In this document: piece by piece, positions 2,429 through 43,856 of the stretch
How the letters are laid out: each line of letters opens with the position of its first letter
How positions within the stretch are numbered: position 1 is the first letter of the stretch
Origin: Ameyamaea chiangmaiensis
GTDB lineage: Bacteria; Pseudomonadota; Alphaproteobacteria; Acetobacterales; Acetobacteraceae
DNA: 47,737 bases
Assembly (NCBI RefSeq): GCF_013376175.1
Contig: NZ_JABXXR010000009.1
Span: 1-47,737, forward strand
Reading direction: 5' to 3'
The notes under the pieces: model-generated
Told to the model about the DNA's origin: nothing
Seen by the model: only the letters and a program-made list of their open reading frames with translations
The model's database searches: none
Position numbers and translations under genes: made by a program

Positions 2429-4183
2429 CTACAATCCGAGTCCACGCTTGCGGCCGAGATTCCAGTCGACACTGCCTCCCGGCGACATCGTGCCGCTAAC
2501 ATGGCGGCCGAGCTTCTGCTCCAGCGCCGGACGCCACGGCACGAGCTGGAAGCCCAGCCCGTCATCGACCATCGCGAAGCGGCCGGAGGACAGATCGACC
2601 CGCTGGCGATAGACCCCCGAGACGATCTCGCCCTCCCGCGCGGGCCGGTGCTCCAGCCCGGTCTGCGCCGCCAATCTGGCAACCGCCTGATCAAGATCGC
2701 GCTGACGCAGGGTGCCGATCAGATCAGGTGCGAACACCACCCGTTCGCCCTGCCGCCGGGCCAGCCCCTCGGACGCCAGATGGTCGATCCGCCGCGCCAT
2801 CGCCGCGCGGACCTCCGCGCCGAAGCCCGCATTGGCCAGTGCCGGCTCTTTTGCGAGTAACTGGCGATCTAGCCAGGTTGCACCGGGTGCCGTCACCTGC
2901 TCGGCCAGCGTGAAGTCCGAGCGCGTCGCCAGTGACAGGCACTGCGTGCCTTTGGCATCCTCCCAACTCCGGGTCTCGACAATCGCACCGGTCCTGGCAT
3001 CGCCGGTCAACTCCAGATCGGGGAAGCGGACATGATGCGTCCGCCCGTCGGTGCCGGCTATGACCACGTAGCCGGAGCCTTTCAGTTCGTCATCCAGCCC
3101 GCGCTCGACCAGCCGGCCAATGACGGGATCGGCCAGCGTCTCGCCGTGGATCGCGAAACCCGCGACATCGGGTTCCACCCCGCCGCCGACCATCGCGCGG
3201 TGCATGGTCTTGATGATGTCGCCCCGGATGGAAAGATCGCGCAGCGTCGCCTCCAGCCCCGGCTTGAGAGCCCAGCGCGCTACCCCGACTCGTTCGGCCA
3301 GGCCAAGCCCTTCCAGCTTGGTCGCCCGGCCAACCAGCAGGCGCCGCAGTTGCGGGTCTTCGGCACCCGCGCCCGGCCGCAGATCGACGATGCCGCCCCC
3401 TTGGTCGCTGATGTCCTGCAGCGCGCGATCGAGGCTGGTCCAGCGGTCGGCGCCGATCTCCCTCTCCAGGGCGGTGCGGATGTCCTGTTCGCTGCGCGGG
3501 CCCAGCTCCAGCGTCACCCGTTCGGCGGCGCGGTTGTGCATGCCCTGACTTATATAAGCGCGGCTGATCACCAGATCCTTGCCGTCATCGGCCACGCCGC
3601 GCACCAGGATGTGGACATGCGGGTTGTCGGTGTTCCAGTGGTCGACCCCGACCCAGTCCAGCTTGGTGCCCAGGTCGCGCTCCATGTCCTGCATCAGTTC
3701 ACGCGCGAAACCCCGCAGATCCTCCATCCGCGCCGCGTCCTCGGGCGAGACGATGAAGCGGAAATGATGCCGGTCGTCGGAGCAGCGCTCCGCGAAGGCC
3801 TTGCTGTCCGCTTCGTCGGAACCGGCATCGAACAGATGGGCCCTGGCGCCGTCGCGGGTCACGCCCTCGCGCCTGAGATAGGCGATGTGCCGGGCGAGCG
3901 GCGCCGACCGGAAGCGCGTGCCCTGCTGACGAACAACGCGCGCCTTGACCACGACCCGACGGGCGTTGCCGCGCAGCCGCATGGATAGTGCTGCACGTCG
4001 GCCCCGCCCGAAACGGGAACCACCGCCGCCTCCCCTGCCCTTCGCGCCGAACCGGGTGCCGGTATGACCGGCCCTTTTCGCGGCACGCATGACCTCACCG
4101 ACGAAGGACTTCGGTCGCGCGCCCTGGTTGCCATGCTGGATGCGTCCGGGCCGGACAGTCAGGCTGTCATCGCGCGTCGCCAT
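2429..4183 (-). CDS. Relaxase/mobilisation nuclease with DUF3363 region (copy 1)
   Basis: 584 residues. The N-terminal third has a basic Gly/Arg-rich leader, then VVVKARVVRQ and the HUH-type motif around residues 182-191 (DHWNTDNPHVH), typical of VirD2-like relaxases that nick oriT and pilot the strand. The remainder matches the DUF3363 C-terminal region and ends in RKRGLGL. The start at 4183 is chosen for the GGAG in front of MATRDD; a longer reading adds 37 atypical residues. It lies downstream of a lytic transglycosylase and a TraF-like peptidase, as in mobilisation modules. It is about 120 residues shorter than the second relaxase (31026-33137), mainly through missing residues in the C-terminal half. 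Confidence 0.88.
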   Translation of the reverse strand: MATRDDSLTVRPGRIQHGNQGARPKSFVGEVMRAAKRAGHTGTRFGAKGRGGGGGSRFGRGRRAALSMRLRGNARRVVVKARVVRQQGTRFRSAPLARHIAYLRREGVTRDGARAHLFDAGSDEADSKAFAERCSDDRHHFRFIVSPEDAARMEDLRGFARELMQDMERDLGTKLDWVGVDHWNTDNPHVHILVRGVADDGKDLVISRAYISQGMHNRAAERVTLELGPRSEQDIRTALEREIGADRWTSLDRALQDISDQGGGIVDLRPGAGAEDPQLRRLLVGRATKLEGLGLAERVGVARWALKPGLEATLRDLSIRGDIIKTMHRAMVGGGVEPDVAGFAIHGETLADPVIGRLVERGLDDELKGSGYVVIAGTDGRTHHVRFPDLELTGDARTGAIVETRSWEDAKGTQCLSLATRSDFTLAEQVTAPGATWLDRQLLAKEPALANAGFGAEVRAAMARRIDHLASEGLARRQGERVVFAPDLIGTLRQRDLDQAVARLAAQTGLEHRPAREGEIVSGVYRQRVDLSSGRFAMVDDGLGFQLVPWRPALEQKLGRHVSGTMSPGGSVDWNLGRKRGLGL

Positions 4184-4429
4184 GGCCCGCTCTCCGCTGC
4201 GATGTGCGCCTGACGGCGCCCGGATCGTTGAAAAGATTAGGGAAATTGTCCGAAGAGCCGCAGGCGCTGCATCGTGAGAGGACAAATTCCCCAATCAAAC
4301 CAACCACATGCGGCCCCGAACGGGCGCTGCTTTTACCTTGCCGTCCTTCCTTCCGTTGCCTGCCTCCCCCCGGCACCCCATCCCCAAGGCACCCGTAGGC
4401 CGCCAGCGCCCGATGGACCGGAACGGGGG

Positions 4430-5134
4430 TCATCGACGTGCTTCCCCATGCCCTGAGGCGATGAACAGACCGGCCGATTGCGGGGCAAGCGCCGTCCAGT
4501 CAGTCGGGCGGGGACCGGATGAACGTGCCGGATCGTGCGGGCTTTCGACAGGCCGGGACGCCTCGCCCGTGCGCAGGAATGAGGCCGGAAAGAGGGAGGA
4601 AACCTGCCACAATGGTACAGCCGAAGCACTGACAGCGATGTCATCGGCAGGCGGAAGAGCCAGCTGCGCGCTGACCGATGCGACGTAATTCCGCGTCTCG
4701 ACAGGAAGCGGCCGACCGGTCGCGAGATGTTCGTCATAGCGCGCGGGACCGGCATTATAGGCAGCAAGAAAACCGGCCTCGCCGTAGCGGTCCCGCATCC
4801 AGCGCAGATAGGTCGCCCCCGCCAGAATGTTGTCGTGCGGATCGAAGGGATCGTCGCCGAGGCCGAGCGACGTGTGCAGGCTGGCCCATGTTCCGGGCAT
4901 CACCTGCATGAGCCCCATAGCACCCGCCGACGACACGGCATGCGCATCGCCCCTACTCTCGGCGTGCAGGACGGCAGCAATCCATGCGGCCGGAATCCGC
5001 GCGCGCGTGGCGGCTTCCGCGATCATGTCGGCGTAGGGATCAGCGGCCGCGACATGCCCCGGTATCGTCAATGAAACGACGGTCGGAAGCACGATACAGA
5101 GCAGACGGAGCGCCGCCTTACCGCCGGTCATCAC
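4430..5134 (-). CDS. Lytic transglycosylase (VirB1/SLT-type)
   Basis: 234 residues with an N-terminal signal peptide (hydrophobic segment ending in HVAAA) and an SLT domain. The catalytic Glu lies in AVLHAESRGDAHAVSSAGAMG, followed by GLMQVMPGTW and FLAAYNAGP, the standard lysozyme-like motifs. Such enzymes open peptidoglycan locally for conjugation machinery. The start overlaps the 3' end of the DUF736 gene by 17 bp; a second Met lies one codon in. No trb or virB channel genes remain nearby, so it may serve a mating channel provided in trans. Confidence 0.88.
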   Translation of the reverse strand: MMTGGKAALRLLCIVLPTVVSLTIPGHVAAADPYADMIAEAATRARIPAAWIAAVLHAESRGDAHAVSSAGAMGLMQVMPGTWASLHTSLGLGDDPFDPHDNILAGATYLRWMRDRYGEAGFLAAYNAGPARYDEHLATGRPLPVETRNYVASVSAQLALPPADDIAVSASAVPLWQVSSLFPASFLRTGEASRPVESPHDPARSSGPRPTDWTALAPQSAGLFIASGHGEARR

Positions 5135-5456
5135 GCTTCACCGGGCGGCTCCAGACCAGATGAAAGGCACGCCCCTGACGATCGGACTGGAACAGGTTGG
5201 CGCGGATCGGCTGCGCCAGCATGGGGTCATCGAGAACGAGCGAGAGATAGGTGCCCGCCTTCTCGCCGGTGCGTTTCCACCCCGCGCCGACCTCCGGTCC
5301 GGCATCGGCGTCACCAAGATGGATGCGATAGTCGGGCGCATGCTCGGCGTCCGACGATGTCGCCGGCACGATCGTCAGTTCAACGTCGAGGGCGAGCGTG
5401 CGCAGGCGACCGGCAAAGCCGTCAGCCGTGCGCGTGAAAGTACCGATCTGGGCCAT
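5118..5456 (-). CDS. DUF736 family protein (copy 1)
   Basis: 112 residues beginning MAQIGTFTRTADGFAGRLRTL, the typical DUF736 opening, and ending near HLVWSRP, the typical close. A second DUF736 gene lies at 12619-12945. The family is common on alphaproteobacterial plasmids and integrative elements and has no established activity. This copy lies between the TraF-like peptidase (1-bp gap) and the transglycosylase (17-bp overlap), so it is co-transcribed with transfer genes. The start at 5456 is set by the conserved MAQIGTF; an upstream extension looks non-coding. Confidence 0.85.
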   Translation of the reverse strand: MAQIGTFTRTADGFAGRLRTLALDVELTIVPATSSDAEHAPDYRIHLGDADAGPEVGAGWKRTGEKAGTYLSLVLDDPMLAQPIRANLFQSDRQGRAFHLVWSRPVKRDDRR

Positions 5457-5457
5457 G

Positions 5458-6000
5458 TCAGCCTCGTTTCTGGTTGGGGTTGAGAGACATCGGTGACGCC
5501 ATGAGCCACAGTGGCTGGGCGCGGCCGAGCACTGCATCGACCGGCAGGACGCCGAAATAGCGGCCGTCGAGACTGGTCGGGACTGCCGGGTTCATGACGA
5601 AAATCTGCCCGGGCAGGACGTGCCGGCATCCCTGCCAGACCGGCAGCGGACGGCCGCGATGATCGCGGGCCAACGCATCGCCAAGCACCGTGCCATCGAC
5701 CGAAACGACGGTGCCGATCCGGCAGACCAATTGCCCCGGCAGTGCCGCAACCGGCTTGAGCAGTGGCACACCGAGCGGCAGATAGCCGCCGTGCGCCAGC
5801 ATCGTGGCAATGTCGGAGGGTGGCCGGATCGCGATCAGGTCGCCGACATGCAATGAGCGGGCCGATTGCAGGCGATACAGCCCGACCGGCGTGCTGGCGG
5901 TGGCATTCCAGATCAGGCGGGGCGCCGGATGGATCGCCAATGACGTGCCGGCACCGAGGACTGCGAAATACGTGGTGAAGAACCAGCCGAAGCGCGTCAT
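5458..6000 (-). CDS. TraF-like S26 family signal peptidase
   Basis: 180 residues. An N-terminal membrane segment (FGWFFTTYFAVLGAGTSLA) is followed by NATASTPVGLYR, which holds the catalytic Ser of the type I peptidase fold, and then GVPLLKPVAALPGQ with the general-base Lys. FVMNPAVPTSLDGRYFG near the end matches the conserved C-terminal box of TraF. In conjugation systems TraF matures the pilin subunit. Its start overlaps the DUF2840 stop by 4 bp (ATGA). No pilin gene is present in the window. Confidence 0.88.
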   Translation of the reverse strand: MTRFGWFFTTYFAVLGAGTSLAIHPAPRLIWNATASTPVGLYRLQSARSLHVGDLIAIRPPSDIATMLAHGGYLPLGVPLLKPVAALPGQLVCRIGTVVSVDGTVLGDALARDHRGRPLPVWQGCRHVLPGQIFVMNPAVPTSLDGRYFGVLPVDAVLGRAQPLWLMASPMSLNPNQKRG

Positions 6001-6461
6001 GATACCGCCCTCCGGCGCAACCAGGCATCATGGCGGTCGCGCGTGTAGGGGCGTGGTGCCTGCCCGGCGAGCATCCGATTGTGCAGATGCCGCCAATGCT
6101 CGGGGGCCACGTCGACTGGGTCGATACCGGTCGCCTCGATGCGATCGATCACTTCGAGCACCAGCCGGACCTTCGGCCAGCCGCTCTGGCGCAGCAGGCT
6201 TTCACCACCAGGGCGCACGAACGGCACCGTCTGATACGGCTCGCCGGGACGGGTAACGCGCACGATGTCGATGCAGGACACCACCGTGCCGTAATCGTTC
6301 GCTGCCCAGCGCAGGAAGGCGAACACGGCGTCCGGAGGAAAGCTCAGTATCCGTCGGCGACGATCAAGAATCTGCTCATGGGCGACTGGACCAAAGCGGA
6401 TCCAGTGCTCGATGCGCTTCTCGATCCAGGTCAGTTCGACATGAGCGAGGGTGTCGTTCAT
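5997..6461 (-). CDS. DUF2840 domain protein (copy 1)
   Basis: 154 residues starting VELTWIEKRIEHWIRFG and containing VFAFLRWAANDYGTVVS and DPVDVAPEHWRHLHNRMLAG, the DUF2840 landmarks. Function is unknown; it is routinely found between partition-type genes and traF on alphaproteobacterial elements. It overlaps both neighbours by 4 bp. A paralogue at 33893-34369 keeps the same landmarks, so the gene was present in two mobilisation modules. Confidence 0.85.
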   Translation of the reverse strand: MNDTLAHVELTWIEKRIEHWIRFGPVAHEQILDRRRRILSFPPDAVFAFLRWAANDYGTVVSCIDIVRVTRPGEPYQTVPFVRPGGESLLRQSGWPKVRLVLEVIDRIEATGIDPVDVAPEHWRHLHNRMLAGQAPRPYTRDRHDAWLRRRAVS

Positions 6462-7440: not shown

Positions 7441-8075
7441 GGCACCAGTCCCCCGATCTCGGCCGTCAGGGCGGCGATTTCGCGGGCTGCGATCCCGTGC
7501 GGGCGCAGGTCGCAGACCAGGCGGCCGGTGCGCGCGGCGTCGGCGAAAGCAATCCGCTGGCCGATCCGCGCCGCTAGAGCGGCAGGCTCATGCCCCACCA
7601 GCGCGAGCCGCGTTTCGCGGGCAATGACCGTGCGTGCGGCGCAGCGGTTGAGTACGAAACGGGCCAGCAGGCCGGGACGGAAGAAGCGCGCGTCCTCCAG
7701 CAACCGCAGCATCTCGGCCGAGGCCCAGCCGTCGAATGGCGAGGGCTGGGCCGGAATCAGCACCAAGTCGGCAGCCAGCAGGGCGGAGCGCAGCAGTGCT
7801 GCCACCCGAGGCGGACCGTCGATGACGACGTGGTCCACCCCCTGCGCCAGTTCCGGCGCTTCGTGGTGGAGTGTGTCGCGTGCCAGCCCGATCACGCCGA
7901 ACAGCCGGGGCAGTCCTTCCCGCGCGCGCTGCGCCGACCAGTCCAGCGCCGAGCCCTGCGGGTCGGCGTCGATGACCGTCACGCGCTGGCCTTCCCGAGC
8001 CCATTGGCCTGCGAGATGCAGCGCCAGCGTCGTCTTGCCGACGCCGCCCTTCTGGTTGAGGAAGGCCACGATCAT
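7437..8075 (-). CDS. parA: ParA-family partition ATPase
   Basis: 212 residues. The deviant Walker A KGGVGKTT is at residues 9-16, followed by VIDADPQGSALDW and the switch segment HVVIDGPPR. This is a short, ParA type Ib-like protein without an N-terminal HTH. The ATG at 8075 overlaps the repA stop (ATGA) and follows a GGAGAGG sequence, so it is preferred over an upstream alternative. ParA moves plasmid copies by dynamic DNA-bound ATPase gradients with a centromere-binding partner. Candidates here are the RHH protein at 6458-6700 or the ParB at 22150-24207. Confidence 0.92.
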   Translation of the reverse strand: MIVAFLNQKGGVGKTTLALHLAGQWAREGQRVTVIDADPQGSALDWSAQRAREGLPRLFGVIGLARDTLHHEAPELAQGVDHVVIDGPPRVAALLRSALLAADLVLIPAQPSPFDGWASAEMLRLLEDARFFRPGLLARFVLNRCAARTVIARETRLALVGHEPAALAARIGQRIAFADAARTGRLVCDLRPHGIAAREIAALTAEIGGLVP

Positions 8076-9127
8076 GGCCCCTCTCCGGGGGTTTTCCACG
8101 GATCGGCAGGGGGGCCAACATTCTTAAAGTTAGACTCTTTTAAGTTAGATTCTAAGTTAAGGGTGTCATAACCGCTTGATTCGATGTCGTGATTCGGCGT
8201 TTTCCGCAAACGATAGCACGGATGCCGTGGCAGTGATGGCACGGATAAATCCACAACTGATAGCACGGATGAATTCACAAGTTGTCCACGGGTGCCTGTG
8301 GATAATTTGACAGGCGCGAAGGCCAGCGTGTCATTGCCATTGCGGTCAGGGCGCACCGACAGCCGATAGCCGGGAAAGGGCTGCCGCTTCGCCATCTCAC
8401 GCAGTTCGAAGGCAAAGCGGCGATACGGGGAAAGGCTGGCGGATTTTTCGTAAAGATGACGCAGGCCGAAGGCCCAGCCCGCGCGCTGGCGACCGCCATG
8501 CTTGCGCACGATGCGATAAAGCCAGCGCTCCAGACCGCCTGTGAGGCCAAAGTAGGCCGGGTCAATGGTCAGCACGAGCGCGTCATCGAGAACCGCCTGG
8601 TAGAACCAGTCGGGCAGGATCAGTTCGATCACGCGGGTGCGCCCTTCCCGCGCGGTGTGCCGCTTCCATTCGTTGATCCAGGAAAAACGGTGCAGTTGCC
8701 CCTTCCCGGTCTGCCGGAGCGACGTCTTGATCGTGGTGGATTGCAGTCGATCGAACGCCGCTTCCAGCCGCTCATAATCCCGCGCGCTGTCGCCCCGGCC
8801 GATGAAGGTCAGGATCTCGCGCGGGCTGGCCACCATCAGGCGCGACGTGCGCCGACCGGCGTCGCGAGCGGCAACGAGATGGCTGGCGGCCCAGATCAGC
8901 ACGTCGGCGTCCCAGATCGTGGCCATGCCATGTTCGGCTGACGCCTCGACCCGGATGGTGACGTCCGGGGTCCGGTAATCGATCGGGACCATACGAGGGG
9001 ATTTGGCGAGGCTGAAGAATGGGAACGCCATCAGATCCTGCGCGTCACGAGGGGCGAAATCTCCCGCAATCGCATGGAAGAGTTCCAGTTGCTCGCGCTC
9101 GGAGCGCACTCTGCCCGTCGGGGACAT
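8072..9127 (-). CDS. repA: Plasmid replication initiator protein A
   Basis: 351 residues matching the RPA-type plasmid initiator family: RSEREQLELFHAIAGDFAPR, then MAFPFFSLAKSPR, GRGDSARDYERLEAAFDRLQ, FSWINEW and LTGGLERWLYRIVRKHGG. It binds iterons and starts replication from oriV. The start overlaps the upstream HTH gene stop by 1 bp (TGATG) and the stop overlaps parA. The last 80 or so codons are unusual: they contain three iteron-like repeats, a DnaA box and AT-rich direct repeats, so the coding 3' end probably doubles as the origin. Confidence 0.9.
   Translation of the reverse strand: MSPTGRVRSEREQLELFHAIAGDFAPRDAQDLMAFPFFSLAKSPRMVPIDYRTPDVTIRVEASAEHGMATIWDADVLIWAASHLVAARDAGRRTSRLMVASPREILTFIGRGDSARDYERLEAAFDRLQSTTIKTSLRQTGKGQLHRFSWINEWKRHTAREGRTRVIELILPDWFYQAVLDDALVLTIDPAYFGLTGGLERWLYRIVRKHGGRQRAGWAFGLRHLYEKSASLSPYRRFAFELREMAKRQPFPGYRLSVRPDRNGNDTLAFAPVKLSTGTRGQLVNSSVLSVVDLSVPSLPRHPCYRLRKTPNHDIESSGYDTLNLESNLKESNFKNVGPPADPWKTPGEGP
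8120..8306. other. Candidate plasmid replication origin (oriV) inside repA
   Basis: Three iteron-like repeats lie at 8212-8224 (GATAGCACGGATG), 8235-8247 (GATGGCACGGATA) and 8259-8271 (GATAGCACGGATG), spaced 23 and 24 bp. A perfect DnaA box (TGTGGATAA, 8297-8305) and a near match (TTGTCCACG, 8282-8290) follow. On the other side, 8125-8160 holds AT-rich repeats of AAGTTAGA or AAGTTA type that could be the unwinding region. All of it lies in the repA coding sequence. Confidence 0.6.
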
Positions 9128-9420
9128 CAGCGTCGGTTCCCGCGTGAAGTCGCCGGTGTCGGCGGGATCAGCGGGCTTTGCCGCGCGGCCGCCGACACCG
9201 TGCCGGCGGTGGTGTCAGAGGTATGGGCGCGTGCCCCGCTCTCGACCCAGGCCTGCAGTTCATCGACCCGATAGACCACGCGGCCACCGAGCTTCGAGTA
9301 GCGCGGGCCGGTGCCGTAGATCCGGTGTTTTTCCAGAGTGCGAATGGAAAGCCCGACGAAGCGCGAAGCGTCGGGCGTGCGCAGATAGCGCGGCGGCAGA
9401 TCGCTGTAATTGGCGGACAT
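9127..9420 (-). CDS. Helix-turn-helix (AlpA/MerR-like) DNA-binding protein
   Basis: 97 residues. The central YLRTPDASRFVGLSIRTLEKHRIYGTGPRYSKLGGRVVYR is the excisionase/AlpA-type winged HTH seen before plasmid repA genes. The ATG at 9420 is preceded by GGAG; a longer reading adds 13 residues without support. First gene of the operon leading into repA (TGATG overlap), so it probably regulates replication and transfer gene expression. A 15-bp hairpin about 90 bp upstream may be its operator or an RNA element. Confidence 0.85.
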   Translation of the reverse strand: MSANYSDLPPRYLRTPDASRFVGLSIRTLEKHRIYGTGPRYSKLGGRVVYRVDELQAWVESGARAHTSDTTAGTVSAAARQSPLIPPTPATSRGNRR

Positions 9421-9506
9421 GAGAAGGCTCCGTGATCGCTGTCTGGGGCCGCGGGACAAATGCGGCCAGCAGGGATCAGCGTGGCGGAGCGGGCATGTTC
9501 GGAACT

Positions 9507-9540
9507 AGGACCGATCTCACCACGGGGTGAGATCGGTTCT
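9507..9540. repeat. 15-bp inverted repeat upstream of the rep operon
   Basis: AGGACCGATCTCACC (9507-9521) faces GGTGAGATCGGTTCT (9526-9540) around the 4-nt loop ACGG, with a single G/T mismatch. It lies between the divergent HTH-repA operon and the NYN-type gene and is not followed by a T run on either strand. It is more likely an operator, a replication or transfer site, or an RNA structure than a terminator. Confidence 0.6.
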
Positions 9541-9611
9541 TGACAGGCAAAGGCGCTATGTCGACTCTCAATCTCGGCTCGCGCATCCAAACGGAAGGCA
9601 ATTCTGTAACA

Positions 9612-10406
9612 ATGCAAAAATCAGAAAAATTGGCATTCGAGATTGACCTGACCGAGGCGATGCACGGCAAGATTATCGTGGACGGTTATCACCTACGTAG
9701 CGGATATCACCGGTGCCACAAGGAATGGCCTAGCGCAGCTAAAGTAGGAAAGGTAATCGCCAGTATTTCCAGCGAGATAAGTTCATGGCTCCATAACAAC
9801 ACGCAGCATAGCCTGTTTTCTACGCAGACATCCTATTGCGATGCGATTCTGTCTGTTCCTGACGAAGTAAAAATCAAAAAATGGCAGAAGGAAAAGGAGA
9901 TTGAGCGAAATTCACTTTTCAAAGAGCTAGATTGTAAAAATATTTCCACTGATCGGCGTACAGAACTTCTTCAAGCGCTGCCGCTCACAACCTTGGAATT
10001 CGATATTGAGCGCTATATTCAGGCGCGCACAATTTTTCTTAAAGAATCGTCTAACGAATTTGAAATAGAAAAAATTCTAAACCTTGAGATTAAAGACGGA
10101 GACTGGATACGCCTCCCACCACGCCAAACCAATGTTGATACGCAGATCGCAACTGAAATGATGGCGTGTTTGAACGATGGTTTTCCTTGCCATTTTATCG
10201 TTCTGGTATCGAACGACGGGGGCTTTTCTTACACGATGAAAAAGATGCGCGAATGCGAATTTAATGGACTCATTCTCAATGTTAAATTCGGACAAAGTAA
10301 CCGTGAATATGGTTACTATTCCACAGCATTAAGAGACGAAGCAGACAAAAGTTTTTATTTCGACACGAACAACTCCCTTACGGAAGTAAGCAAAAAACCT
10401 TCATAA
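9612..10406 (+). CDS. NYN/PIN-like nuclease-type protein, AT-rich cargo
   Basis: 264 residues from the ATG at 9612; in-frame starts at 9540 and 9558 are possible. Three acidic positions match the NYN (LabA-like) layout: GKIIVDGYHL (Asp24), NVDTQIATEMM (Asp176) and FIVLVSNDGGFSYTMKKMRE (Asp202), with a hydrophobic strand before the last. NYN proteins are metal-dependent RNases. A long Lys/Glu-rich helical insert separates the first motif from the rest. The DNA is visibly more AT-rich than both flanks, implying transfer. The gene sits alone in a gap between backbone operons; a defence or toxin role is inference. Confidence 0.6.
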   Translation: MQKSEKLAFEIDLTEAMHGKIIVDGYHLRSGYHRCHKEWPSAAKVGKVIASISSEISSWLHNNTQHSLFSTQTSYCDAILSVPDEVKIKKWQKEKEIERNSLFKELDCKNISTDRRTELLQALPLTTLEFDIERYIQARTIFLKESSNEFEIEKILNLEIKDGDWIRLPPRQTNVDTQIATEMMACLNDGFPCHFIVLVSNDGGFSYTMKKMRECEFNGLILNVKFGQSNREYGYYSTALRDEADKSFYFDTNNSLTEVSKKPS

Positions 10407-10463
10407 AATCGACACTTATTCCCATGTCGGAAACACCCCAATTGACACGGCTAACCGCATTTG

Positions 10464-10489
10464 CCCGGAATTGAAGTAAGTGTTCCGGG
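10464..10489. terminator. Terminator-like inverted repeat between convergent genes
   Basis: CCCGGAA (10464-10470) pairs with TTCCGGG (10483-10489) across a 12-nt loop, between the convergent NYN-type and DUF2285 genes. There is no T run, so the assignment is weak. Confidence 0.35.
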
Positions 10490-10494
10490 GCACT

Positions 10495-11260
10495 TCATCG
10501 CCCCCGAAACGGATGCAGCAGGAGGCGTCTATAGCCACCCGCGGTCAGCCGCCGCGCGAAACGCACCAGCCGTTTCATGCGGAAATGCAGATCGTGCGAG
10601 AGCCAGTCCCGTGCGGAAACCTTCTGACCGAAAAGGACGAACGCGATCTCATGCTGCGTCGCCCCGGCGTCCAACCCATCGAGCGTACGGAGCGCCAGGA
10701 TCAGCCGAGTGACCCGATCTGGCGACAGGGTCGCGGGATCGGGTCCGGAGCGCCGGCCCACCAGCGCGCGCCAGAGCCGCAACGCGGCCTGGACGCGCAC
10801 CTCAAACAGGGCGTCGAGCGGCAGGACGACGGAGAGGGCTTCGATCCCCGACGTCACCAGATGCAGGCGCAGAACGACGCCTGGGCGCTCGAGCAGGAGT
10901 TCACCAACCTGGCCCGCCGGCAATCCGATAAAAACAGAGGTGAACGGCGGGTGATCCGGCTCAGCCAGACCGGTCGGCGCTTCCATCAGCGCGATCACGC
11001 TCGGCAGCACCGCGGCACTCCACAAGGCAGTACGCGGGTTCAGCGCAGTGCGCACACTTTCGAAATCGCAACCCCCAGCGCCGGGCGAAGGCCTCGGCAT
11101 CCGGCTGCATCAGGGCACCCCGGCGCAACGCGCGCTGAAGAGTGGCACGCTCACGGATAAAGTCCCGATTGCGACTGACAAACTGCAAGGCAAAGGCAGG
11201 GGCGTCGAGCGACCGCAGGCCCTCGTACGCGCCCGCCGACCGCCAGTTGGCGCGGCTCAT
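10495..11260 (-). pseudogene. DUF6499-DUF2285 protein, apparently frameshifted
   Basis: Reading from the ATG at 11260, the first part (MSRANWRSAGAYEGLRSLDA through FARRWGLRF) is the DUF6499-type N-terminus. Family-like sequence then continues in the next frame (TALNPRTALWSAAVLP through DWLSHDLHFRMKRLVRFARR), the DUF2285 C-terminus. The switch lies near 11060, around CGATTTCGAAAG, and needs one base to be skipped. Either the gene is a recent pseudogene, the base is a sequence error, or a programmed shift occurs. Intact relatives are small proteins of unknown function on alphaproteobacterial mobile elements, encoded beside XRE regulators as here. Confidence 0.65.
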
Positions 11261-40350: not shown

Positions 40351-40383
40351 CCTCTTGACGAGGCAAGCATCTCTTCCAATCTT
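40351..40383 (+). promoter_or_regulatory. Sigma32-like promoter of the micropeptide operon
   Basis: -35-like CCTCTTGACG (40351-40360) and -10-like CCAATCTT (40376-40383) separated by 15 bp. The hsp20 promoter (43825-43856) has the same -35 (CCTCTTGACA) and CCCAGATT. The predicted transcript starts at about 40390, where the first leader hairpin begins. Confidence 0.6.
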
Positions 40384-40389
40384 GCTTTC

Positions 40390-40467
40390 GCCGGACGCCA
40401 TCGGGTCCGGCATAGGCTCCCTGAGCCGGACAACTGGAATCCATGTTGCTTTAATCGGAGGATGTGG
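40390..40467 (+). promoter_or_regulatory. ROSE-type RNA thermometer (micropeptide leader)
   Basis: Three hairpins in a 78-nt leader: GCCGGAC/GTCCGGC (40390-40411), GGCTC/GAGCC (40415-40427), and the last one, CCATGTTGCTTT (40441-40452) pairing with GGAGGATGTGG (40457-40467). In the last hairpin the ribosome site GGAGG is paired, the G of TTGCT is bulged and the loop is AATC. This is the ROSE signature and is nearly identical to the hsp20 leader at 43743-43819. Confidence 0.7.
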
Positions 40468-40566
40468 ATGTCGACACTGAAAGGACTTTATTCCCGCTAT
40501 CGCCGCTCCTTGCGCACAGCCGCCCGGAGATGGCGCAACCGACTGGAGGGAGGCGTATCATGGTAA
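40468..40566 (+). CDS. Basic 32-residue peptide under heat-shock leader
   Basis: MSTLKGLYSRYRRSLRTAAR then RWRNRLEGGVSW. Very basic (ten Lys/Arg) and predicted as an amphipathic helix. It starts 6 nt after GGAGG of the ROSE-type hairpin, so translation should be temperature dependent. The stop overlaps the next gene's start region (ATGGTAA), coupling the two. No family recognised. Too short for standard gene callers; the matched promoter and thermometer are the evidence that it is real. Confidence 0.55.
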   Translation: MSTLKGLYSRYRRSLRTAARRWRNRLEGGVSW

Positions 40567-40829
40567 CGCGCCCCCTTTTCGGAGACGATCCGCTAGCTCC
40601 GCGTGTCCTCTCCGTGCTCCGCCGCCTGGGTCATGACGGACGTGGCGTGACGCTAACATCTCTGGTGGCCCATACCGGTATACCGGGGATCAGACTTCGC
40701 TCCACGCTGGAACGCCTGGTCCAGGCGGGCGCGGTCGCCCCTGCCGGGTGTGATCCCCTGGCTTCTGATCTCGCGTTCCGTCTCCCCATGCGGGCAAGAG
40801 CCGCACCGCCAGTTCCGGTCGCGGCGTAA
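40560..40829 (+). CDS. Small winged-helix-like protein
   Basis: 89 residues: LAPRVLSVLRRLGHDGRGVTLTSLVAHTGIPGIRLRSTLERLVQAGAVAPAG is a winged HTH of the MarR/DnaD-like compact type; the tail is Pro/Ala-rich. GGAGG lies before the ATG, which overlaps the micropeptide stop by 7 bp. It is therefore expected to be co-expressed under heat control. A terminator at 40919-40944 ends the operon. Confidence 0.6.
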   Translation: MVTRPLFGDDPLAPRVLSVLRRLGHDGRGVTLTSLVAHTGIPGIRLRSTLERLVQAGAVAPAGCDPLASDLAFRLPMRARAAPPVPVAA

Positions 40830-40918
40830 GGCACTGACCGCGCCGGGTAGATCAGAAACGCCTTCTCCGAGCGGAAACGCCGTCTTTTCTGGAACGACCG
40901 CACGAATGAGAGGGTGGA

Positions 40919-40944
40919 GCGGGGCCTTCCATCGGAGGCCCCGC
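40919..40944 (+). terminator. Terminator after the micropeptide operon
   Basis: GCGGGGCCT (40919-40927) and AGGCCCCGC (40936-40944), a 9-bp stem with an 8-nt loop, followed by GTCTCT. It separates the heat-leader operon from the STN gene. Confidence 0.65.
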
Positions 40945-40983
40945 GTCTCTGAAGGTGAGGTCGAAAGCAGAGAGAACAGGGAG

Positions 40984-41538
40984 ATGTCGAGTTTTATCCA
41001 TTTTCTCAACCTGAAGGCGCTTCAGGACTATTGGAATAACCATCCCTCCTTGCCCCGTTCACTTGTGACGATGGGGCCAGTTTGGTCGCATTCCGCCGGA
41101 GAGACGGAGCGAGCGGAACAGACGGCCAAGCAACCTTGGCGCCTTCGGCAGAGGGAGAGACCACACGTCGCTGTCGGTCTCGTCCTCATGCTGCTGGTCG
41201 GAATGGCCTCGCCGACATCAGCTCATGCGCCGCATGATGTGCTGTCGTGCGAGACAGAAAAGCAGCCGGTGAACATTCCATCCATGCCACTGGCCCGCGC
41301 CATCGAGATGTTGGGCCGGCAGACCGGGTGCCCGGTCCTTGTCGACCCGCCCCTTATGGACGGCCGGACCTCGGCAGCCGTCAAGGGCACCTATACGCCT
41401 CAGGGCGCCCTCCTCCATCTGTTCGGGTCCGTGCATGTCGACGTCACCGCCACTGTTTCGGGCTTGAGCGTCAGCCCTCTGGATGCGACGGCTCTGACAT
41501 CGGGCGACACGCGCGCCAGCCTGAGGACTGCATCATGA
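40984..41538 (+). CDS. STN-domain exported protein
   Basis: 184 residues. A hydrophobic segment (HVAVGLVLMLLVGMASPTSAHA) acts as signal or membrane anchor after a long basic N-terminus. The mature part (VNIPSMPLARAIEMLGRQTGCPVLVDPPLMDGRTSAAVKGTYTPQGALLHLF) is an STN (secretin and TonB N-terminus) domain. STN is normally the signalling front of TonB receptors or secretins, but no barrel or channel follows here. The stop overlaps the next gene by 4 bp. The N-terminal start is uncertain. Confidence 0.7.
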   Translation: MSSFIHFLNLKALQDYWNNHPSLPRSLVTMGPVWSHSAGETERAEQTAKQPWRLRQRERPHVAVGLVLMLLVGMASPTSAHAPHDVLSCETEKQPVNIPSMPLARAIEMLGRQTGCPVLVDPPLMDGRTSAAVKGTYTPQGALLHLFGSVHVDVTATVSGLSVSPLDATALTSGDTRASLRTAS

Positions 41539-41912
41539 CTCTTCACACGGACAGGCCGAACAGAATTATGTCGCTTCCGACCGTTCAGATCGGCACAGAA
41601 CTGGCGGTCCTGCTGGCCGACTATCTTGGCGACGAGGAAAGAGATCGGGGATATGACGGCCTCATGCGTCGGGCGGCTGACCACCGGGTTTACGATCGGG
41701 TTTCTCGCTGGAGAACCGCGTCAGCCCCGGAAGCAACGACCGTCGCCGTGGTCCGAAAACTCCTGCCTGTCGCTGACCGCGCGCACATGGCCAAGGCCCT
41801 GGGCTGGTCGTTGGGAGACCTCGAAAACCAGCTGACATCGGCCTTGCCAAAGGCCGTGCGAGATCATGCCAGAACATTGTCCTGTCGTCTGCCACGCTGG
41901 CACCGGCTCTGA
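41535..41912 (+). CDS. Unknown protein coupled to STN gene
   Basis: 125 residues, ATGA-coupled to the STN gene. It contains IGTELAVLLADYLGDEERDRGYDGLMRRAADHRVYDRV and ALGWSLGDLENQLTSALPKAVRDHAR, predicted helical, no signal peptide. I recognise no family. The coupling suggests it acts with the STN protein, perhaps as a cytoplasmic partner; this is inference. Confidence 0.55.
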   Translation: MTLHTDRPNRIMSLPTVQIGTELAVLLADYLGDEERDRGYDGLMRRAADHRVYDRVSRWRTASAPEATTVAVVRKLLPVADRAHMAKALGWSLGDLENQLTSALPKAVRDHARTLSCRLPRWHRL

Positions 41913-41957
41913 CCCGGATGTGCGCCGGAACGACCACGTGTCTTTCCGCAGACTGTT

Positions 41958-42152
41958 TCAGTCCGCATGTGGGTCCGCATCCACATCCGAGGGATCGAGC
42001 GGTTCGACCAGTCCTTCCTTGTCCGGATCGATTGGTGGCTCCTCTTCGTCAGGTGCAAGCGCCGGATGCGGGCGCTGCTCCTTCTCCCGAGAAGGAAGCG
42101 GAGGCGGTTCGAACGGGCGGTGAGCGCCCGTGATCCGTAACGTGTCCTGCAT
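41958..42152 (-). CDS. Small Pro/acidic-rich protein (64 aa)
   Basis: MQDTLRITGAHRPFEPPPLP, then a charged stretch ending DPSDVDADPHAD. GGAG sits 9 bases before the ATG at 42152; a start at 42167 lacks a site. The high Pro/Asp/Glu content suggests an unstructured protein. It is divergent from the PsiE-like gene. The rest of 41913-42233 holds nothing else. Confidence 0.5.
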   Translation of the reverse strand: MQDTLRITGAHRPFEPPPLPSREKEQRPHPALAPDEEEPPIDPDKEGLVEPLDPSDVDADPHAD

Positions 42153-42233
42153 GGGGACATTCTCCATCGCTAAAAGAAAAACCAGACCCAGGACGTGGGA
42201 ACTATAACGCAATTCATAGATGGGAAAACGGCT

Positions 42234-42791
42234 ATGGAAGACCTCTCCATGAAACGTTCCTGGCAGAGCAGGGACTGGTCCCGCCTCATCAAGCTGTTCA
42301 GGGGCCTGACATTCTACGAGCGTTTTGAACAGGCGATCATTCTGACCCTGATTGCGCTCATCATGCTGGTAACCGCCATCGCGACGATTCATCTGATCGG
42401 CGCGGTATGGCATCTGGTCGTCGATGTCGGGATCGATCCGATCAACCAGACGATCTTCCAGGCGATTTTTGGCGCGATCTTTACTGTTATCATCGCTCTT
42501 GAGTTCAAACACTCCCTGCTGGTCGTTCTTGCCCAGCATGAGAACGTTATCCGGGTGAGAACCATCGTCCTGATCGCCCTCCTGGCGATTGCCCGCAAAT
42601 TCATCCTGCTGGATCTGCATGATGTGACTGCCATGGAACTGTTCGCTCTCTCGGCGGCTGTTCTGGCTCTGGGCATCGTCTACTGGCTGGTTCGCGAGCA
42701 GGATGCGCGTGTCGCGCGCGACGCCAGGGAACAGGCGCCTCTCGAAGATAATCCTGCGGCCCGCTGTGAGCCTGAACGGTCTTCATCCTGA
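42234..42791 (+). CDS. PsiE-family membrane protein
   Basis: 185 residues with four membrane segments: FEQAIILTLIALIMLVTAIATIHLIGAVWHLV, INQTIFQAIFGAIFTVIIALEFKHSLLVVL, RTIVLIALLAIARKFILL and LFALSAAVLALGIVYWLV. The ALEFKHSLL and IARKFILLD segments are typical of PsiE (phosphate-starvation-inducible E). GGGAAA precedes the ATG at 42234. No pho box is seen. It is found among stress genes here (Hsp20 is next), so a stress-related role is plausible. Confidence 0.85.
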   Translation: MEDLSMKRSWQSRDWSRLIKLFRGLTFYERFEQAIILTLIALIMLVTAIATIHLIGAVWHLVVDVGIDPINQTIFQAIFGAIFTVIIALEFKHSLLVVLAQHENVIRVRTIVLIALLAIARKFILLDLHDVTAMELFALSAAVLALGIVYWLVREQDARVARDAREQAPLEDNPAARCEPERSSS

Positions 42792-42840
42792 AGAATCGAG
42801 GTAAAGGCGGTCTCTAACGCCGCCTTTACTCAAAGCCCCA

Positions 42841-43191
42841 TTACGTCCCGTGCGATGAGGGCGTGTTCTTCGTCGTCTCTGGCCCTGACGGCGCCAGATG
42901 ATCTGTGTCGATGGGCCGGAACGGCGGAATGGGTTGTCCGGGATAATAGACCGGCCCCTTGTAATTCTGATCCAACTGGCTTGCGTTCAAGCTGTCGACC
43001 AGCATATCACCTGTGCCGTCTTCGTAATGAGTGCGAGCTCCGGTTTTGGGGATTGTGGACGTTCCCTCAGTCGCCCTCGCATCGAACGATGTTGCAGCCG
43101 CCCGTGCAAGATCAGCAGCATGTGCGTCCGACTGGCCCAGTAGAGACAAGCCCAGAGCAGCGCACGGCAGAAATATTTTCATCCTCTTCAT
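42841..43191 (-). CDS. Small exported protein, unknown
   Basis: 116 residues from the ATG at 43191 (118 from 43197; AAAGG spacing favours the former). A signal peptide (FLPCAALGLSLLGQSDAHA) is followed by a polar, repeat-free mature part with YEDGTGDMLVDSLNASQLDQNYKGPVYYPGQPIPPF. No recognised domain. It lies downstream of hsp20 and its terminator hairpin. Confidence 0.65.
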   Translation of the reverse strand: MKRMKIFLPCAALGLSLLGQSDAHAADLARAAATSFDARATEGTSTIPKTGARTHYEDGTGDMLVDSLNASQLDQNYKGPVYYPGQPIPPFRPIDTDHLAPSGPETTKNTPSSHGT

Positions 43192-43209
43192 GCTCATGAC
43201 CTTTCGAGA

Positions 43210-43243
43210 CTCTCCCCCGGCCGGATGAATGGCCGGGGGAGAG
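43210..43243 (-). terminator. Hairpin terminator after hsp20
   Basis: CTCTCCCCCGGCC (43210-43222) and GGCCGGGGGAGAG (43231-43243), a perfect 13-bp stem with an 8-nt loop, between the hsp20 stop (43258) and the next start. No T run, but the stem is very stable. Confidence 0.7.
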
Positions 43244-43257
43244 GTTTCGTCACGCCA

Positions 43258-43740
43258 TCAGGCTGCCTCTTTCCGCGCCTCGATCTGGGGCACGGCTTCC
43301 TCCGCGCGTGTCGTAGAGGACGTAATCGCGATACGACGCGGCTTCATCGCTTCGGGTATCTCACGTTTCAGGGTAATGGACAGAAGTCCGTTCTCGAAGT
43401 GCGCATCGGTGACTTTCATATGCTCGGCCAGATCGAAGCGGCGTTCGAATTCTCTGCCCGCAATACCCCGATGGAGATATTCGGCGGCGCTTTGCGGCTC
43501 CGGTGCCTTTCGTCCTGTCACGACAAGAGTATTGCGCTCCTGGGTGATCGCTAGGTCGTTCTCGGCAAGTCCGGCAACCGCCATGTCGATGCGGTAATCA
43601 TCCTCACCGGTCTTGATGATATCGTAAGGTGGCCAGTTATCGGCCGTCGGAATTCGACCGGCGAGATCAACGGCATTGAGCATTCTGTCAAAGCCCACGC
43701 TCGAACGGAACAGGGGAGCAAAATCAACGGTGGCTCTCAT
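43258..43740 (-). CDS. Small heat-shock protein (Hsp20/IbpA type)
   Basis: 160 residues. Alpha-crystallin domain: WPPYDIIKTGEDDYRIDMAVAGLAENDLAITQERNTLVVTG, RGIAGREFERRFDLAEHMKV, and the C-terminal strand FENGLLSITLKREIPE followed by the KPRRIAI (IxI) motif. It holds unfolding proteins. The ATG at 43740 is 8 nt after AGGAGG; an alternative at 43746 is too close. The leader has a sigma32-like promoter and a ROSE-type thermometer. IbpA-type genes are the classic ROSE-controlled family in alphaproteobacteria. Confidence 0.93.
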   Translation of the reverse strand: MRATVDFAPLFRSSVGFDRMLNAVDLAGRIPTADNWPPYDIIKTGEDDYRIDMAVAGLAENDLAITQERNTLVVTGRKAPEPQSAAEYLHRGIAGREFERRFDLAEHMKVTDAHFENGLLSITLKREIPEAMKPRRIAITSSTTRAEEAVPQIEARKEAA

Positions 43741-43742
43741 AG

Positions 43743-43819
43743 CCATATCCTCCTTTGAGCAACATGGACACAAGATCAAAACTGATAGTTCTGTCTGCCG
43801 ACCCCTTCGGCGGTCGGCA
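43743..43819 (-). promoter_or_regulatory. ROSE-type RNA thermometer (hsp20 leader)
   Basis: On the minus strand: first hairpin TGCCGACC/GGTCGGCA (43796-43819), a short AACT/AGTT hairpin, then CCATGTTGCTC (43757-43767) pairing with GAGGATATGG (43743-43752). The Shine-Dalgarno is closed, the G of TTGCT is bulged and the loop is AAAG. This is the ROSE layout; leader length to the ATG is 79 nt. Confidence 0.8.
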
Positions 43820-43824
43820 AATTC

Positions 43825-43856
43825 AATCTGGGAACTCCATGCATGGTGTCAAGAGG
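43825..43856 (-). promoter_or_regulatory. Sigma32-like promoter of hsp20
   Basis: Minus strand: CCTCTTGACA (43847-43856), 14-bp spacer, CCCAGATT (43825-43832). This matches a heat-shock sigma factor pattern, and the same -35 sequence precedes the micropeptide operon at 40351. Confidence 0.65.

Follow-up and report, generated by a model that had tools for sequence, protein, structure and literature searches.

Described ROSE elements and heat-resistance cassettes

Full alphaproteobacterial ROSE elements, RNA thermometers of the Bradyrhizobium hspA type (RF00435), have been described as always tied to small heat-shock genes (PMC4166951). ROSE-like elements are also known on non-chaperone genes, namely ABC transporter genes (PMC11342760) and rhlA and lasI of Pseudomonas (PMC13104619). 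Among mobile heat-resistance cassettes, the locus of heat resistance (tLST) comprises a dna-hsp20-clpG core together with psiE-like orf14 and htpX-like orf15 (PMC8290217). Here we describe a stretch of 47,737 nucleotides (nt) from Ameyamaea chiangmaiensis (contig NZ_JABXXR010000009.1; hereafter the window). It carries a minus-strand hsp20 gene with a ROSE element and, 3.3 kb away in the opposite orientation, a likely ROSE-type leader on a plus-strand operon encoding a micropeptide and a winged-helix protein.

The operon leader resembles the RF00435 elements in its three stem-loops (SL1 to SL3, with SL1 at the predicted transcript start), in the UUGCU that faces the Shine-Dalgarno (SD) sequence with a bulged G, and in a CTTGA -35 element about 36 nt upstream of SL1. 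It differs from them in its target, a micropeptide and winged-helix gene with no chaperone, in a score under the curated cut-off, and in a weak lower SD stem, the part that in hsp20 covers the start codon. With the transporter and rhlA/lasI elements it shares a ROSE-type SD hairpin on non-chaperone genes. Those elements, however, are short, divergent or degenerate and lie on transporter, surfactant or signal-synthase genes, whereas the operon leader has the full alphaproteobacterial architecture and precedes a peptide/regulator pair within a heat-stress cassette. The original prediction, made from the window alone, took the presence of this device on a non-chaperone micropeptide/winged-helix operon to be apparently new. 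Non-chaperone targets were already known for ROSE-like elements in general (PMC11342760, PMC13104619), but the open-licence literature searched contained no report of a conserved micropeptide/regulator target, and to that extent the claim stands.

The surrounding cassette is similar to tLST in being mobile and in uniting a small DNA-binding-type protein, Hsp20 and PsiE, and the gene content of related islands in Roseomonas is likewise reminiscent of tLST (PMC8290217). Unlike tLST, the window cassette is without ClpG, its helix-turn-helix protein is a MarR/SmtB-like winged helix as opposed to the MerR-like Dna, and it appears to be controlled by ROSE elements.

Identity of the operon leader

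The two leaders and the hsp20 gene are located as follows.
40391..40476, plus strand: ROSE-type leader of the micropeptide operon (RF00435, 35.5 bits; covariation; hairpin folds)
40390-40411, plus strand: SL1 of the operon leader
40415-40427, plus strand: SL2 of the operon leader
40440-40468, plus strand: SL3 of the operon leader, followed by the micropeptide ATG at 40468
40446-40450, plus strand: anti-SD UUGCU of SL3, with the bulged G at 40448
40457-40461, plus strand: SD GGAGG of SL3
43258..43740, minus strand: hsp20, IbpA-like small heat-shock protein of 160 residues (PF00011, E 7.7e-18; the IbpA-like NCBIfam match lies under its own cut-off)
43734..43817, minus strand: ROSE element of hsp20 (RF00435, 65.4 bits), with the hsp20 ATG at 43740

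Both leaders lie where the original prediction placed them, and a ROSE-type architecture was confirmed on each gene. The hsp20 leader belongs to the ROSE family, its score exceeding the gathering score of 45, and it is the sole match in the window above an Rfam gathering score. The operon leader gave the second-best RF00435 match genome-wide (E 0.0016 per genome), aligned from the first to the last position of the model with the SD pairing in register.

The reliability of matches of this strength was assessed by searching RF00435 against 385 genomes across the class, the search being blind to the downstream gene. Outside the family Acetobacteraceae, 24 of 26 matches at E <= 0.01 were directly upstream of hsp20. 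Among the control matches below the gathering score the same held for 21 of 23 and, because the search ignores what lies downstream, such sub-threshold matches are mostly real. Conversely, a covariance model built from 19 distinct operon leaders alone (R1) recovered the hsp20 ROSE of the window's own genome at E 2.3e-4. In 397 Acetobacteraceae genomes R1 returned 18 operon leaders, and its other matches at E <= 0.01 fell, as far as checked, at RF00435 ROSE positions.

ROSE elements possess two to four stem-loops, and the operon consensus has three stems, the last holding the SD. The family carries U(U/C)GCU facing the SD with a bulged G; in the operon leaders this is UUGCU, and it and the bulged G were invariant in 19/19 distinct leaders. 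A departure lies in the target, since the first genes are those of the micropeptide and the winged-helix protein and not a small heat-shock gene.

When the three-stem structure was imposed on the 19 leaders, 97.0% of pair cells were paired, compared with 95.2% for shuffles (none of 500 as high) and 25-51% for slid versions. SL1 displayed compensatory changes from C-G to U-A (three sequences) and from G-C to A-U (seven). SL2 also displayed compensatory changes, and in a few species SL1 or SL2 carries a single break. SL3 was 100% paired across all 19, its changes (U-G to U-A, U-G to C-G) respecting the pairing.

The last hairpin was found as originally described: in the predicted hairpin fold of each leader CCATGTTGCT pairs with GGAGGAT, a single G is bulged and the loop has 4 nt. 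For the predicted transcripts, the proposed 78 and 79 nt of leader agree with the -10 positions. The idea of the same device on both genes holds for the architecture and less well for the detail. At 37 °C the SD hairpin of the operon is predicted at -10.5 kcal/mol and that of hsp20 at -15.2, and the lower stem that covers the hsp20 start codon is largely absent from the window's operon leader. The operon versions of Acetobacter pasteurianus and Roseomonas reach -16.3 kcal/mol. SL1 and SL2 of the window operon fold otherwise when the minimum-energy structure is computed from that sequence alone; both find support in the consensus of relatives.

On these grounds the operon leader is likely to be a ROSE-type leader with a conserved function. 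Taking its ROSE-type identity together with heat gating of translation, we consider it probable that the leader is a true RNA thermometer of the ROSE type.

Several observations weigh against this interpretation. The 35.5 bits of the operon leader fall below the gathering score of 45; in the Rfam check suggested with the original prediction, hsp20 passed that score and the operon leader gave a match beneath it, and for that reason we label the leader 'ROSE-type'. SL3 gives little covariation because it is nearly invariant, as an SD and its anti-SD must be. In the comparison of folds at 30 and 42 °C, also suggested at the outset, predicted SD accessibility in the operon leader alone rose only from 0.14 at 30 °C to 0.30 at 42 °C, and in a 231-nt transcript the SD was predicted to pair with other partners, with no change with temperature. 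Folding thus neither demonstrates nor rules out thermosensing, which holds equally for the hsp20 leader. The coding signal of the micropeptide (below) is built on few substitutions, and no expression data were found for the micropeptide operon.

Alternatively, the operon leader might be a decayed or repurposed ROSE element, transcribed by RpoH, that has lost its thermometer action and serves as a constitutive weak leader. The sub-threshold score, the weaker SD hairpin in the window and the single SL1 or SL2 breaks would be in keeping with such decay. We regard it as unlikely, given that SL3 is intact in every distinct leader, that compensatory changes preserve SL1, and that the A. pasteurianus and Roseomonas hairpins are as stable as that of hsp20.

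Promoters

Both genes are preceded by a promoter-like sequence.
40354..40382, plus strand: sigma32 (RpoH)-like promoter of the micropeptide operon, CTTGAC-N16-CCAATCT (from sequence)
43825..43853, minus strand: sigma32 (RpoH)-like promoter of hsp20, CTTGAC-N16-CCAGATT (from sequence)

The claim of sigma32-like promoters on both genes was upheld, CTTGAC-N16-CCA being common to the two leaders at a spacing to SL1 that is typical of the family. The sigma factor is presumably RpoH in both cases, an assignment that we carry over from alphaproteobacterial heat-shock promoters in general. A TTGA lay 35-39 nt upstream of SL1 in 50 of 56 fetched Acetobacteraceae ROSE matches, and three of the six exceptions were hsp20 leaders in which the script chose a later TTGA. 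This spacing fits an RpoH promoter with transcription beginning at SL1. The Roseomonas operon leaders keep the promoter as CTTGAA-N16-CTATCT. By itself the promoter pair is weak evidence, with two matches against 0.29 expected for a pattern picked after the sites were known; an earlier, stricter pattern matched the hsp20 site alone. Scans for sigma70-type promoters and for terminators were at chance level. In Gluconobacter oxydans 621H, whole-transcriptome RNA-seq detected transcription of an hsp20 ROSE leader of equal length, with reads beginning 5 nt inside the Rfam match and no primary start called (PMC5756330 Table 2).

Origin of the operon leader

The original prediction proposed that the operon leader arose by duplication of its neighbour. 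A recent copy of the adjacent hsp20 ROSE would be in line with the cassette, -35 element and architecture that the two leaders share. They are just 56% identical, however, no nearer to each other than ROSE elements that are unrelated. The operon leaders, including those of Roseomonas, formed one group in a 53-element tree (support 0.77, modest, on about 90 sites) apart from the hsp20 ROSE of the cassette, and those of acetic acid bacteria alone grouped with support 0.96. The grouping and the low identity speak against a recent local duplication, which is already largely refuted and, in our judgement, highly improbable. From its sequence, the operon leader appears to be an old relative of hsp20 ROSE elements and not a copy of its neighbour.

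The micropeptide and its coding frame

The operon leader is followed by two overlapping frames.
40468..40566, plus strand: unannotated basic micropeptide of 32 residues, MSTLKGLYSRYRRSLRTAARRWRNRLEGGVSW, with a net charge of +8 (start, frame and length conserved; codon-position pattern)
40560..40829, plus strand: winged-helix protein of 89 residues (Pfam, AlphaFold2, Foldseek), its start overlapping the micropeptide stop

Start, frame and length of the micropeptide are kept among relatives. Variable columns by codon position numbered 3/6/13 in acetic acid bacteria other than A. pasteurianus, and comparison with the Ga. takamatsuzukensis locus (L128) gave 9 synonymous and 2 nonsynonymous changes. 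The peptide is 94% identical in L128 and 84% in L129, where the adjacent 190- and 184-residue frames are only about 55% identical. Its charge ranges from +7 to +10, and the helical moment exceeds nearly all shuffles in two of four versions. By these comparative measures the frame is under coding constraint. No annotation of it was found in the plasmid records inspected, the gene tables of which are incomplete.

A GTG start at 40464, giving a 121-residue, N-terminally extended winged-helix protein, was rejected: that frame is interrupted in L012 and L128, and its changes are mostly nonsynonymous. Separately, in L013 (G241:C111:20657-20807) the leader and the peptide start are kept and the frame diverges past codon 11, near the end of the contig, where an insertion has probably disrupted it.

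A tentative alternative is that the peptide is a mere leader frame and that the true target of the thermometer is the winged-helix gene, its start being opened by coupling via the 32 codons. The overlap of the winged-helix start with the micropeptide stop, which holds in acetic acid bacteria, would suit such an arrangement, as would the separate SD of the winged-helix gene, a GGAGG that lies within the micropeptide frame 6 nt upstream of the winged-helix start. In Roseomonas, moreover, the peptide is hardly alignable and the winged-helix protein is 41-45% identical. Set against this are the better conservation of the peptide than of neighbouring genes in L128 and L129, the mostly synonymous change relative to L128, and the retention in Roseomonas of peptide length, charge and MS start.

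The winged-helix gene and the probable end of the operon

The winged-helix protein gave weak Pfam matches to HTH_IclR and MarR. AlphaFold2 predicted an H-H-H-E-E arrangement consistent with a winged-helix fold (predicted local distance difference test 75.8), and Foldseek returned weak similarities to MarR/SmtB/PefI-like folds (E about 0.01, best 5.5e-3). A search for homologues elsewhere in the class found nothing beyond weak generic winged-helix matches. One further feature lies behind the gene.
40919..40944, plus strand: predicted strong hairpin GCGGGGCC...GGCCCCGC, with no T-run

A hairpin of different bases is predicted at the matching place in A. pasteurianus (L022) and in L128. The modelled structure probably marks where the two-gene unit ends on its 3' side; it is also possible that it represents a processing site.

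Distribution and cassette context

In genome contigs the winged-helix family was confined to Acetobacteraceae, comprising 27 acetic-acid-bacterium loci (Gluconobacter, Acetobacter, Gluconacetobacter, Komagataeibacter, Novacetimonas, Asaia, Acidomonas and Nguyenibacter) and two in Roseomonas. With a scripted pattern, both the ROSE leader and the micropeptide were detected at every one of these loci except L125, in which the micropeptide is present by tblastn. The order of the unit is ROSE, micropeptide, winged-helix gene, and the cassette, found on plasmids and other contigs, usually includes psiE and hsp20.
42234..42791, plus strand: gene for a psiE-family membrane protein, in the same cassette (PF06146, E 2.5e-28)

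A Pfam scan of the main cassette genes at 39.6-44.3 kb detected HSP20 and PsiE and no Clp ATPase. Some A. pasteurianus plasmids (L023) retain ROSE, micropeptide, winged-helix gene and psiE, with no hsp20 detected nearby. In Roseomonas the unit resides inside an island with M48-protease-like, Hsp20, thioredoxin-like, glycogen-debranching, DnaJ, CbpM-like and DegP-like genes, the M48 and thioredoxin labels having been assigned by eye.

Other ROSE matches in Acetobacteraceae and beyond

Across 43 Acetobacteraceae genomes there were 73 RF00435 matches. In 47 of them hsp20 follows directly, one of the 47, at the end of a contig, having been judged from the leader only; 14 matches belong to the micropeptide operon, and the other 12 precede different genes. 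Among these 12, several stand before small membrane-type proteins that head stress operons or before short frames located a few hundred nt upstream of hsp20. In Roseomonas islands (L057, about 7730-11104; L058, about 3070-6447), the gene after a ROSE element (49.0 and 52.5 bits, above the cut-off) encodes an 81-residue protein that has a single hydrophobic stretch; DnaJ, a CbpM-like protein and a DegP-like protease are encoded next. In L060 (about 3008-3400), L061 (about 1326-1720) and L068 (G261:C3:43191-43257) a ROSE precedes small proteins (102 and 60 residues) with a C-terminal hydrophobic segment, and L068 has a further ROSE with hsp20 about 300 nt downstream. A ROSE and short first frame before an NDUS4 (PF04800) gene occur in two different alphaproteobacterial families (L064, G329:C59:393-483; L149, G488:C75:42797-42874, with first frames of 22 and 41 residues). 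The window's own genome holds weak RF00435 matches (L003 and L004; 20.5 and 18.9 bits) before frames with Hsp20-like starts, possibly degenerate ROSE elements.

Proposed mechanism and implications

Sequence comparison shows the homology of the operon leader to ROSE elements, its conserved structure, the coding frame and the conserved gene order. In the mechanism that we propose, RpoH would transcribe the micropeptide operon from SL1, and at normal temperature SL3 would conceal the SD. Upon heating, SL3 would open and the 32-residue basic peptide would be translated; the overlapping winged-helix protein would be translated next, aided by coupling and by an SD of its own. This protein, possibly together with the peptide, would then probably adjust transcription of the heat-stress cassette or of the host. 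Here RpoH use, SL3 melting and translational coupling are what we infer from the leader and the gene arrangement, and the target of the regulator and the role of the peptide are the most speculative elements.

Heat would thus probably switch on a regulator module besides a chaperone in the mobile stress-tolerance cassette that acetic acid bacteria carry. That the heat-gated module functions as a regulator is plausible, if tentative. Slightly more doubtful is the wider picture of a mobile cassette with its own thermometer-gated regulator, in which RNA senses heat and the product resets cassette or host transcription, and of a wider ROSE-gated small-protein set in some Acetobacteraceae. Heat-shock data that already exist could be used to check the unannotated gene identified here. 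If correct, the peptide and regulator would constitute a second conserved target of ROSE, and this thermometer class would gate regulation beyond the supply of chaperones. It would also provide a first handle on the control of plasmid-borne heat cassettes in vinegar and kombucha bacteria.

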